A DNA stretch of 33,028 nucleotides, from positions 1 to 33,028 of IMG/VR virus record IMGVR_UViG_3300044834_000039; one strand, 5' to 3'. This DNA is from a virus. Shown piece by piece: positions 16,797 to 19,347 of the stretch (position 1 is its first letter; every line of letters begins with the position of its first letter). A model generated the notes under the pieces. It had not been told where the DNA came from and searched no databases. It was given only the letters and a program-made list of their open reading frames with translations. The position numbers and the translations under genes were made by a program.

Positions 16797-17323
16797 ATGC
16801 CATGCGCCTGAACATCTGCTGCGGCCGTCACGTCCTGGACGGCTGGATCAACGTCGACGTCCAGGCGAGCCCCAAGGCCAGGCGGCCGCCGGAGATCCTG
16901 AGCACCTGCACCAAGGTGCCGCTGCCGGACGGCTGTGCTGGCGAGATCATGGTGATCCACGGCTTCGAGCATCTCTACCTGTGGGAGGTGCCCCAGGCGT
17001 TGGCTGAGTGGCACCGGCTGCTGGAGCCCGGTGGCCTGCTGGTGCTGGAGATGCCGGACATCAAGAAGTGCGCCCTGAACCTGCTCAAGTGGATCGACAC
17101 CCAGGACGCCAAGCACCTCGACAGCCAGGCCATGCATGGCCTGTACGGCGACCCGACGACCATGGACCCCTACATGGGCCACAAATGGGGCTGGACGCCA
17201 AAGACGCTCAGGCCGGTGCTGAGCCACGCCGGCTTCGGGAAGCTAAAGACAGCCGAGACACAATGGCATCCGATCGGGCGACGCCATCGGGACTTCAGAA
17301 TCGAGGCTCGGAAGCTGGTATGA
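16793..17323 (+). CDS. SAM-dependent methyltransferase, last gene of plus operon
   Basis: A 176-aa class I methyltransferase. RLNICCGRHVLDGWINVDVQ is the SAM-binding motif I and acidic strand 2; VIHGFEHLYLWEVPQAL corresponds to motif IV, and LLEPGGLLVLEMPDI to the following strand. The C-terminal WGWTPKTLRPVLSHAGF is common in type 11 methylases found in O-antigen and phage glycan clusters. ATG at 16793 overlaps the preceding stop (ATGA). Its 3' end overlaps the last glycine-rich gene on the other strand by 29 bases, so the two operons converge here without a clear terminator. Confidence 0.75.
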   Translation: MNAMRLNICCGRHVLDGWINVDVQASPKARRPPEILSTCTKVPLPDGCAGEIMVIHGFEHLYLWEVPQALAEWHRLLEPGGLLVLEMPDIKKCALNLLKWIDTQDAKHLDSQAMHGLYGDPTTMDPYMGHKWGWTPKTLRPVLSHAGFGKLKTAETQWHPIGRRHRDFRIEARKLV

Positions 17324-17504
17324 CGCCGCAGCCGTAGCCACTGCCCAGGCTATTGCCACAGCCGTCACCGTAGCCTTCGCCACGGCCGTCACCGTAGCCT
17401 GGGCCCGAGCCACGACCCTGCCCCTCTCCGTCGCCATAGCTCGAGCCAAAGCCATCGCCCGAGCCATATCCGTAGCCGTGTTGGCAATCCGGTTCATGTG
17501 TCAT
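17295..17504 (-). CDS. Glycine-rich repeat protein 8 of 8
   Basis: A 69-aa protein opening MTHEPDCQHGYGYGSGDGFG. ATG at 17504 follows a strong GAGGAGGA ribosome site. The body is almost all Gly alternating with Tyr, Ser, Asp, Glu or Arg; three cysteines are present. The end (GVIPASEPRF) is not repetitive. It is the last gene of the minus-strand array and of the late transcript, overlapping the converging methyltransferase by 29 bases. It has no signal peptide or membrane span. The function is unknown. Confidence 0.65.
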   Translation of the reverse strand: MTHEPDCQHGYGYGSGDGFGSSYGDGEGQGRGSGPGYGDGRGEGYGDGCGNSLGSGYGCGVIPASEPRF

Positions 17505-17563
17505 TCGTCTTCCTCCTCGCTGTTTCAATCCGCGCGCCAGCTATGGCACGAAACCATCATCGC

Positions 17564-17803
17564 TTACCAGCCAGACCATTTAGAGCCGTTGTGCTGGTCC
17601 CCTATGCCGCCACCGTGCCCATGGCCTTCTCCGTTGCCCGAGCCCGTGCCATGTCCGTAGCCATCTCCGAATCCTCCGTCGATTCCGATGCTTCCGTGAC
17701 CGCTGCCCAACCCGTGCCCACGCCCCCTACCTCCCTCCTGACCCTCATCAGTGCCTCCGCAGTCGCCAAAGCACTGCTTGTCTTGATCAAAAGGAGTTTT
17801 CAT
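17564..17803 (-). CDS. Glycine-rich repeat protein 7 of 8
   Basis: A 79-aa protein opening MKTPFDQDKQCFGDCGG, with the DQ of the family N-terminus kept. The body has GHGLGSGHGSIGIDGGFGDG and GYGHGTGSGNGEGHGHGGG, rich in His, and ends SKWSGW. It overlaps gene 6 by 17 bases. An upstream in-frame ATG at 17812 (giving MRKMKTPFDQ) is an alternative start that also fits the family. Histidines might bind metal, but that is a guess. Confidence 0.6.
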   Translation of the reverse strand: MKTPFDQDKQCFGDCGGTDEGQEGGRGRGHGLGSGHGSIGIDGGFGDGYGHGTGSGNGEGHGHGGGIGDQHNGSKWSGW

Positions 17804-18014
17804 TTTCCTCATTGAGCCCATATCCATCTCCGTCCCCTTCACAGGTACCGCCTTCGTGGCCGGTACCATCGGGCTTACAAAAGCCCGTGCCGTCACCATC
17901 GCCTTCCGCAGTAGATCCGTGACCATACCCTCTCCCGTCTCCAAGTCCGAAACCGCTACCTGAACCAAAGCCACATTGAAACTCTTTTCCGAATTGATCG
18001 GGTTTATGTCGCAT
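17787..18014 (-). CDS. Glycine-rich repeat protein 6 of 8
   Basis: A 75-aa protein opening MRHKPDQFGKEFQCGFGSG, preceded by a clear GAGGAG ribosome site in the 14-bp gap after gene 5. The glycine repeat is shorter and less regular here (GSGSGFGLGDGRGYGHGS), then comes an acidic segment with two more cysteines (FCKPDGTGHEGGTCEGDGDG) and a polar end (NEENENSF). It is the most divergent member in the body but keeps the HKPDQ start. Confidence 0.65.
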   Translation of the reverse strand: MRHKPDQFGKEFQCGFGSGSGFGLGDGRGYGHGSTAEGDGDGTGFCKPDGTGHEGGTCEGDGDGYGLNEENENSF

Positions 18015-18028
18015 TGCTACTCCTCAGT

Positions 18029-18289
18029 TTAATCACCATAGCTTTCCCCGTTCCCGGCACCAAAGCCATAGCCATAGCCATAGCCATAGCCCTCGCCGTA
18101 GCCATCGCCATAACCGTATCCATGGCCGTAGCCGTCTCCGTTGCCAGCGCCCGAGCCGATACCAGCGCCGTTGCCAGAGCCGAGACCGTAGCCGTTGCCG
18201 CCACGAAGGCTTTCGCCACGGCCAGAAGCAAAGTCAGTGCAGCCAGCGCCGTAGCCAAGATGGAACGCGTGATCAGACTTGTGCATCAT
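18029..18289 (-). CDS. Glycine-rich repeat protein 5 of 8
   Basis: An 86-aa protein opening MMHKSDHAFHLGYGAG. The C-terminal half is a near-pure GYG/GDG repeat (GYGHGYGYGDGYGEGYGYGY). Its start region overlaps the end of gene 4. Three in-frame ATGs at 18301, 18295 and 18289 are possible; 18295 overlaps the previous stop as ATGA, while 18289 matches the family MMHK start. The GYG runs are encoded by GGCTAT hexamers. Confidence 0.65.
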   Translation of the reverse strand: MMHKSDHAFHLGYGAGCTDFASGRGESLRGGNGYGLGSGNGAGIGSGAGNGDGYGHGYGYGDGYGEGYGYGYGYGFGAGNGESYGD

Positions 18290-18291
18290 CG

Positions 18292-18573
18292 TCATGGCCA
18301 TGGTGCTGATCCAGAGCTAGCGCCGTCACCCCAACCACTGCCGTCGCCAGAGCCATCGCCAAAGCTTTCATCGGCACTTCGGTTGGTGCTACTGGTGCCA
18401 CCACCAATACCATTGCCACTGCCGCAGCCCTCCCCGCGACCAAAACTAAACTCTTTGGCATCAGCATCACCACCCTTGCCATAACCATATCCATAGCCAT
18501 CCCCGGCACCAAAGCCGTCACCGGAGCCGAAACCGTCGCCCCCTAGAGGCCCCTGATCAGCCTTGCGCATCAT
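18292..18573 (-). CDS. Glycine-rich repeat protein 4 of 8
   Basis: A 93-aa protein opening MMRKADQGPLGGDGFGSGDG. The repeat is GDGFGAGDGYGYGYGKGG, then a non-repetitive middle (DADAKEFSFGRGEGCGSG, TSSTNRSADESF) and a GDGSGDGSGWGDG tail ending PWP. The first seven residues are identical to those of gene 2. The start overlaps the end of gene 3 in the shared GATGATGCGCAAGG junction. Confidence 0.68.
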   Translation of the reverse strand: MMRKADQGPLGGDGFGSGDGFGAGDGYGYGYGKGGDADAKEFSFGRGEGCGSGNGIGGGTSSTNRSADESFGDGSGDGSGWGDGASSGSAPWP

Positions 18574-18769
18574 CTGTAGCTCCATCATCGGAGCCAGAGC
18601 CGTTACCGTAACCGGAGCCGGAGCCGGAGCCGGAGCCGGAGCCGGAGCCGTCGCCATGGCCGAAGCCGTCACCGTAGCCGTAGCCATAGCCATAGCCATA
18701 GCCGGCCCTGGCCCCGCTACCGTGGCCGTAGCCCTTTCGATACCCTTGATCAGCCTTGTGCATCATCAT
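18557..18769 (-). CDS. Glycine-rich repeat protein 3 of 8
   Basis: A 70-aa protein opening MMMHKADQGYRKGYGHGSG. Three consecutive ATG codons begin it. The body has GYGYGYGYGYGDGFGHGDG followed by a run of GS pairs and ends DDGATDDAQG. Those last codons are read in another frame as the start of gene 4. The N-terminal 14 residues are nearly identical to gene 2. Confidence 0.68.
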   Translation of the reverse strand: MMMHKADQGYRKGYGHGSGARAGYGYGYGYGYGDGFGHGDGSGSGSGSGSGSGYGNGSGSDDGATDDAQG

Positions 18770-19100
18770 TGTCCCTGGGACCGTGACCGTCGCCGGCACC
18801 GTTGGCGTCGCCGAAGCCGTTGCCAGAGCCAAAGCCGTAGCCTATGCCTGAGCCAAAGCCGGAGCCGGAGCCGGAGCCAGAGCCGGAGCCGGAGCCGGAG
18901 CCGGAGCCGGAGCCGTTGGCGTCGCCATGGCCGAAGCCGTCACCGTAGCCGACACCGCCGCCGCCGAAGCCAAAGCCGTTGCCGTTGCCAGAGCCAAAGC
19001 CAAAGCCTATGCCTGAGCCAAAGCCGGAGCCGGAGCCGGAGCCGGAGCCGGAGCCGGCCCCACGGCCCTTTCGATACCCCTGATCAGCCTTGCGCATCAT
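18750..19100 (-). CDS. Glycine-rich repeat protein 2 of 8 (longest)
   Basis: A 116-aa protein opening MMRKADQGYRKGRGAGSGSG. Two similar halves, each with a long GS run, GFGSGIG, then a GFG/GNG segment, indicate an internal duplication. DANGSGSG and FGDANGAGDGHG mark the joins. It ends PRDNDDAQG, read in another frame as the start of gene 3. It has the purest GGCTCC DNA repeats of the array (18860-18914 and 19023-19056), which should be prone to length changes in steps of two residues. Confidence 0.7.
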   Translation of the reverse strand: MMRKADQGYRKGRGAGSGSGSGSGSGFGSGIGFGFGSGNGNGFGFGGGGVGYGDGFGHGDANGSGSGSGSGSGSGSGSGSGFGSGIGYGFGSGNGFGDANGAGDGHGPRDNDDAQG

Positions 19101-19347
19101 TGTCCCGTCGCCACGGCCGGTTCCCGTCGCCACGACCATAACCAGTGCCGGAGCTATCGCCCTGGCCATGGCCGTCACCGTCCCCATGGCCGTAGCCATT
19201 GGTGCCGCCAGAACCATTGCCGTAGCCAGTGCCGTAGCCGTCGCCTTGGCCATACCCGTCACCGTCGCCCTGGCCATGGCCAAAGCCGGAGCCGGAGCCC
19301 GACCCGGCCCCACGGCCCTCTCGATACCTCTGATCGGGCTTACGCAC
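19084..19347 (-). CDS. Glycine-rich repeat protein 1 of 8 (first in array)
   Basis: An 87-aa protein with GTG start opening MRKPDQRYREGRGAGSGSG. The start lies two bases after the DUF6948-like gene's stop, so the array is probably co-translated with it. The body mixes GHGQGDGDGYG and GYGTGYGNGSGG and ends RRDNDAQG. The last codons overlap the start of gene 2 by 17 bases. A TTG four codons upstream is an alternative start. Confidence 0.68.
   Translation of the reverse strand: MRKPDQRYREGRGAGSGSGSGFGHGQGDGDGYGQGDGYGTGYGNGSGGTNGYGHGDGDGHGQGDSSGTGYGRGDGNRPWRRDNDAQG

Follow-up and report, generated by a model that had tools for sequence, protein, structure and literature searches.

Sm-like proteins with Gly-rich tails are already known, and some eukaryotic Sm/LSm proteins carry tails rich in Gly and Arg. 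In bacteria, the Hfq protein of Acinetobacter possesses a long Gly-rich repeat tail whose repeat number matters to RNA regulation (PMC11617691, PMC5663733); in A. baumannii this tail of GGFGGQ repeats affects RNA binding and autoregulation (PMC11617691). Gly-rich stretches in the linker of the Escherichia coli single-stranded DNA-binding protein SSB promote condensation (PMC12143593). In this study, we analysed a 33,028-base phage record of IMG/VR (IMGVR_UViG_3300044834_000039; the whole stretch is called the window) and observed eight minus-strand genes for chains with Gly at alternating positions, (Gly-X)n, downstream of a gene for DUF6948, a Pfam domain (PF22253) of unknown function. The earlier note on this DNA knew no phage family like the array, which turns out to be an expanded copy of a common DUF6948 and (Gly-X)n gene pair. 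We give about an even chance to the reading that this pair is a two-gene module, in which a nucleic-acid-binding Sm-like protein is served by sticky disordered tails supplied in trans, and that the tails have been multiplied here.

Like Acinetobacter Hfq, the pair is predicted to combine an Sm-type barrel with a repetitive, disordered tail of Gly and aromatic residues. However, the Hfq tail is present in cis and its GGFGGQ units are not a strict Gly-X repeat, and in sequence DUF6948 is not detectably an Hfq. The eukaryotic Sm/LSm proteins (SmD3, LSm4) belong to the fold class predicted for DUF6948, but they show no significant sequence similarity to it, and the (Gly-X)n chains of the window contain little Arg, their acidic residues outnumbering the basic ones. 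SSB, too, belongs to a recombination setting and joins a nucleic acid binder, as we infer DUF6948 to be, to a low-complexity segment rich in Gly; in contrast, it has an oligonucleotide/oligosaccharide-binding (OB) fold, its segment lies in cis and there is no two-gene module. High Gly/Tyr keratin-associated proteins and sulphur globule proteins (PF17228) are also short, Gly/Tyr-rich and encoded by multigene families. The sulphur globule match is sub-threshold (14.0 bits versus 26.7) and reflects low complexity, not homology. All window proteins fall under the curated cut-offs of the sulphur globule, TrAA12 and keratin-head Pfam models, and the matches to these and to PHROG 18306, 11232 and 10432 are of the same low-complexity kind, the PHROG, TrAA12 and keratin-head ones mostly with marginal E-values. 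DUF6948 was already known as a Pfam domain (it is not named in the literature searched), and its (Gly-X)n partner has no family in Pfam or PHROGs. New are an obligate, separately encoded, hypervariable Gly-X partner, its coupling over 17 nucleotides (nt), and the eightfold expansion in the window.

Linkage of DUF6948 and (Gly-X)n genes

All eight open reading frames (ORFs) of the array proposed in the earlier note (17295-19347, here GX1 to GX8) are present with alternating Gly and with the N-terminal leaders quoted there (Table 1). The proteins are 69-116 amino acids (aa) long and contain 31-43% Gly; among 196 X residues, S (43), Y (35), D (28), F (18), H (14) and N (11) are the most frequent. 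First-order Markov resampling of the region yielded a mean of 0.01 Gly-alternating ORFs of at least 60 aa per resample, with a maximum of 1. The reading frame changes between successive genes, and other long open frames over the array on both strands (e.g. 199 aa at 18750-19349) are a side effect of its hexanucleotide repeats. The earlier description left out the neighbouring gene at 19350-19637, which we regard as essential. It is a clear DUF6948 member (79.6 bits against a curated cut-off of 27, over residues 7-87 of 95), and its stop lies 2 nt ahead of GX1 on the same strand.

The pair was traced in viral contigs from both sides. Counts from these contigs are samples and lower bounds, their loci are non-identical and not phylogenetically independent, and all of them refer to the matches listed. 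A neighbour-blind scan for DNA that encodes five Gly-[NAY] dipeptides in a row returned at least 120 stretches, with many short (Gly-X)n ORFs of differing leaders, some in tandem. DUF6948 was located directly upstream on the same strand, mostly overlapping, at 56 of 67 (Gly-X)n loci; the profile for this count was built from genes upstream of (Gly-X)n ORFs, and the window itself was scored as a miss because GX1 has a GTG start. Conversely, when an alignment of DUF6948 proteins was used as the query, a (Gly-X)n gene was found immediately downstream at 67 of 69 non-identical DUF6948 loci (97%), or at 53 of 55 without the 14 closely related gonococcal-type prophages. In one contig (L062) both parts are fused as a single ORF, and the gene order is inverted in L032 and MW202478. 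Carriers include Pectobacterium phages Taid, Sabo and Koroua, Dickeya phage Setonix, Iodobacter phage PhiPLPE, Vibrio phage IKEMa6-1, Chlorobiaceae phage CV-1-33 and two Manatee Spring podoviruses. Each of the Neisseria gonorrhoeae records contains DUF6948 at three places, of which the one that was read continues into a (Gly-X)n gene. Genes of the second type at L142 3252-3515, L144 1164-1406 and L229 1429-1662 are mis-framed or missed in the records of CV-1-33, PhiPLPE and MW202478: that of PhiPLPE is unannotated, and the annotated products in the other two are in the wrong frame (MAMAMALAM...).

At most loci there is a single (Gly-X)n gene. When distinct loci were counted automatically, 141 were single-copy and 11 multi-copy; this count is too low for degenerate arrays (5 for the eight genes of the window, 2 for the four of L178). 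Larger arrays elsewhere are L090 and L027 (5 each), L032 and L178 (4 each) and L037 and L131 (3 each), so that eight copies are the most among the matches listed.

Several searches found nothing. The window DUF6948 as a single sequence recovered no relative, an alignment query being needed; a strict leader-plus-repeat DNA pattern had zero matches in viral contigs, and its six matches in bacterial genomes were chance hits. A tblastn search with GX5 gave no phage match, presumably owing to low-complexity masking, and nothing close to the gonococcal-type module was present in E. coli genomes. Next to the L090 array, a PcfJ-like gene appeared promising at first but was not general.

In some phages the repeat is part of a longer protein. 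It is fused to a C-terminal domain without a name (..WHxxLTGSCxxGR..) in L048, L095, L103 and L132, and a domain of this type (..YIDG..AKG..cYIAK..FAHG.T..WHxxLTGSCxxGRxxF..) is also joined to (Gly-X)n in L228 and L233; four such domains were scanned, with no Pfam match. LRR-like (leucine-rich) repeats precede a similar domain in L053. Other fusions have a GACxxGV N-terminal region (L051, L099, L113, L124) or DUF7666 (L105).

Coding selection and predicted structures

The tandem duplication of a small gene, as proposed earlier, stands, with real translation signals; that the array ends a late operon is not shown, since a 130-nt hairpin leader intervenes. The last junctions indeed have clear signals, with good ribosome sites for GX6 to GX8 and a 17-nt overlap at 6/7. 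Exact 17-nt overlaps also occur at junctions 1/2, 2/3 (from the second Met) and 3/4, and at all four the upstream stop TGA sits within the xDQ codons of the next gene (TGATCA). Elsewhere, 31 of 38 typical pairs show an overlap of exactly 17 nt between the DUF6948 gene and its (Gly-X)n partner; MSKLNKP, MPKLNN and MSKLDK are examples of the leaders. Part of the leader conservation stems from the overlap, because the xxT-AAR codons (e.g. AAT AAA) encode the upstream stop TAA. MRKPDQ and MRHKPDQ of the window have K-P(-D) in common with MSKLNKPD and with MRHWHKPDG of L216, a motif too short for statistics.

The X residues reveal what is under selection. In a set chosen by DUF6948 alone, they were Ser (560), Tyr (398), Asp (370) and Asn (150), with about 134 others. 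Among codons with C at position 2, Ser accounts for 440 and Ala, Thr and Pro together for 26; Ser is written both as TCN (440) and as AGY (120), and all four Gly codons are in use. This convergence of Ser codons and the rarity of Ala, Thr and Pro show that selection acts on the protein, and speak against mutational drift of a DNA repeat. The gonococcal-type prophages carry the same message. Nearly all lie within 0-4 nt of L197 over a 285-nt DUF6948 segment (L211: 39 nt), whereas the (Gly-X)n partner in the close group is 91, 93, 95, 97 or 129 aa long, i.e. it varies in two-residue steps; the L193 and L202 alleles are frameshifted and L204 is cut by the contig end. Thus the frame is held while length changes fast. 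A selfish or microsatellite-like expansion at the DNA level, with incidental ORFs, would fit hexanucleotide repeats that are simple and slip-prone and leave several frames open on either strand. Besides the codon usage, it is contradicted by a frame that nearly all gonococcal-type alleles maintain, by conservation of the leader and of the 17-nt overlap, by the ribosome sites and by the 97% linkage to DUF6948, and we regard this explanation as largely refuted and very improbable.

Rapid length change would also suit an accessory pair that blocks or sponges a host defence system or nuclease, with the chain length tracking a host factor. The distribution is accessory: relatives found via their lysozyme and methyltransferase genes (L009-L015) possess neither a (Gly-X)n nor a DUF6948-like ORF, and an early-region position is frequent. 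However, Pfam and PHROGs, the only libraries compared, gave no known anti-defence similarity, and composition is conserved without diversifying change at particular sites. Such a counter-defence role appears rather unlikely to us.

AlphaFold2 predicted GX2, modelled with its paralogues, to lack secondary structure, with a predicted local distance difference test (pLDDT) score of 35.7. The (Gly-X)n chain is thus a predicted disordered chain, in line with the flexible Gly/Tyr/Ser low-complexity chains proposed in the earlier note, and the phase-separating role suggested there would be compatible with the data. Alternatively, the repeat could form an ordered, silk-like or solenoid scaffold that arrays fused or partner domains. 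Strict alternation would yield an all-Gly face, and some phages have (Gly-X)n where others have different repeats, between the leader and the WHxxLTGSC-type domain (LRR-like in L053), or after DUF7666 (L105). Given the low pLDDT, the missing secondary structure and the free two-residue length change, we consider such a scaffold fairly improbable.

For DUF6948, a 69-sequence alignment led to an AlphaFold2 model of a small beta-barrel with a pLDDT of 94.7. The top 50 Foldseek matches in the PDB were all Sm/LSm chains, with probability 1.0, and the BFVD matches were headed by other DUF6948 proteins, with some phage Sm-like proteins further down. DUF6948 is therefore predicted to be an Sm-like small beta-barrel of the five-stranded Sm fold class.

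Setting of the array in its phage

The source phage has a DNA polymerase similar to those of Bordetella phage BPP-1 and Caulobacter phages, and a repressor-like gene. On the minus strand, tail fibre, structural and lysis genes (holin, endolysin, Rz) are located upstream of DUF6948, and the lysis genes are parted from it by the 130-nt intergenic leader with its strong hairpin. Such a lysis-gene neighbourhood is unusual for the pair, which elsewhere occurs mostly within early or recombination regions. A PHROG comparison of 102 neighbours included repressors, NinG/Rap, Cas4-type exonuclease, RecE, RecT, Sak4 and SSB as well as helicases, HNH and terminase; it gives the kinds present, with no control set, and is not a measure of enrichment. 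Named contexts are Erf/SSB/exonuclease (Taid), RecE/Bet (PhiPLPE), SSB/RusA (a Monoglobus record) and Erf (MW202478).

The position after the lysis genes on the same strand, together with the similarity of the chains to silk and other Gly/Tyr-rich structural proteins, might suggest late structural, adhesive or coat proteins of the virion or extracellular space, with DUF6948 as chaperone or anchor. The earlier note had considered such a surface or adhesive function, to which nothing points: no secretion signal or virion domain was seen, the partner has a predicted Sm-like fold, and modules elsewhere lie mostly in early or recombination regions. Virion material is therefore a quite unlikely explanation.

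In the DUF6948 leader (RNA fold z -4.7), interleaved inverted repeats are arranged B-A-B'-A' along the minus strand, and a small hairpin with a GCGA loop lies between them. Mutually exclusive hairpins, a pseudoknot, a switch or an attenuator are possible. A conserved RNA leader was sought upstream of other DUF6948 genes and not found, and an Rfam search of the window found no family. The two copies of the 27-nt element share the palindrome TGTA(T/G)CTTAAG(A/C)TACA, and its symmetry is kept through a compensatory T-A to G-C change, which fits an operator or promoter element. Apart from these, the window harbors a block of sialyltransferase-like, glycan and methyltransferase genes, of which L009 has similar genes in the same order without a GX array.

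Table 1. Coordinates of the gene pair, its upstream elements and other features of the window, with the gonococcal-type loci
Feature	Position	Strand	Details
GX1	19084-19347	-	87 aa; GTG start; leader MRKPDQ; begins 2 nt past the DUF6948 stop
GX2	18750-19100	-	116 aa; leader MMRKADQ; overlaps GX1 by 17 nt
GX3	18557-18766 (or -18769)	-	69 aa (70 from 18769); leader MMHKADQ; start at 18766 gives a 17-nt overlap with GX2
GX4	18292-18573	-	93 aa; leader MMRKADQ; shares 17 nt with GX3
GX5	18029-18289 (or -18301)	-	86 aa (90 from 18301); leader MMHKSDH
GX6	17787-18014	-	75 aa; leader MRHKPDQ; ribosome site GAGGAG; repeat more degenerate
GX7	17564-17803	-	79 aa; leader MKTPFDQ; ribosome site GAGGAAA; 17-nt overlap with GX6
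GX8	17295-17504	-	69 aa; leader MTHEPD; ribosome site GAGGAGGAAG
DUF6948 gene	19350-19637	-	95 aa; Pfam PF22253, E 2e-22; third gene after the lysis genes, followed by the GX array
DUF6948 leader	19654-19742	-	Interleaved perfect inverted repeats of 19 and 13 base pairs (bp)
19-bp repeat arms	19654-19672/19702-19720	-	
13-bp repeat arms	19674-19686/19730-19742	-	
27-nt element	19752-19778	-	Palindrome TGTATCTTAAGATACA; upstream of the DUF6948 leader
27-nt element, second copy	20186-20212		Upstream of gene 19768-20148
Second gene after lysis genes	19768-20148	-	
First gene after lysis genes	20207-20638	-	
DNA polymerase ORF	6839-9361		Mini-intein-like inserted stretch (CISEDQLVLTDQG...VYDIVNCGPRNRFTVSGKLVHNCGYGG); alignments to other phages broken into two or three pieces
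Glycan gene block	12373-17323	+	Sialyltransferase-like, glycan and methyltransferase genes
29-nt tandem repeats	2087-2198		Four near-perfect copies (CCCAGGTCCCCGGGGTCCCCCGTCAAACG)
177-nt tandem repeats	31360-31852		2.8 copies within the tail-fibre gene; likely receptor-binding repeats
Gonococcal-type prophage loci	L227 4812-5569; L191-L211		DUF6948 and length-variable (Gly-X)n gene; ready allelic series

Proposed role of the gene pair

In the two-gene module that we favour, DUF6948 would form a small Sm-like beta-barrel, probably an oligomeric nucleic acid binder. The second gene would supply a disordered chain with Gly at every second residue, in which Tyr may act as sticker and the remaining residues (mostly Ser, Asp and Asn) as spacer. 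The 17-nt overlap would couple translation of the chain to that of the barrel, so that both are made together, and the chain would serve as a low-complexity tail in trans that renders the Sm-like oligomer multivalent. Together, the two proteins would build a multivalent nucleoprotein assembly or a condensate and thereby organise the nucleic acid of the phage, replication or recombination being the most likely occasion. Given the recombination neighbours in other phages, the likely target is phage DNA or RNA at replication sites. In the window, duplication to eight copies, several with the overlap, would provide eight chains of varied length and make-up per operon. Potentially, a single ribosome passes between genes at the duplicated 17-nt overlaps, which would raise the ratio of chains to barrels.

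Several observations weigh against this reading. The pair in the window adjoins lysis genes and not recombination genes, and its DUF6948-to-GX1 junction is +2 nt instead of -17, i.e. it lacks the 17-nt overlap. The predicted disorder of GX2 is weak evidence, as the sequence is of low complexity and the alignment had 8 rows. For DUF6948, the best Foldseek E-value in the PDB was only 6.7e-3, with TM-scores (template modelling) of about 0.5-0.7. Moreover, hhalign against single SmD3 and Hfq sequences gave a probability below 1%, which is not significant, and the DUF6948 profile matched no PDB sequence. Sm homology of DUF6948 is therefore not established by sequence.

A more far-reaching idea, which we put forward tentatively and consider doubtful, is that these pairs constitute an overlooked, hypervariable ribonucleoprotein or deoxyribonucleoprotein compartment of phages, in which a phage-encoded Sm-like protein and a Gly-X sticker-spacer polymer from a separate gene, fast-evolving in chain length and copy number (eight chains in the window), form tunable condensates on phage nucleic acid. 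In any case, one half of a gene pair that is very common in phages has gone nearly unseen: low-complexity masking hides the second gene, or it is left unannotated or mis-framed. Through the pair, DUF6948 gains a partner, a predicted fold and a role that can be tested. The gonococcal-type prophages, with their near-constant partner gene, offer a natural Gly-X length series that may reveal how sticker-spacer chains work in bacteria, and the window is the extreme case, with the polymer gene present eight times.

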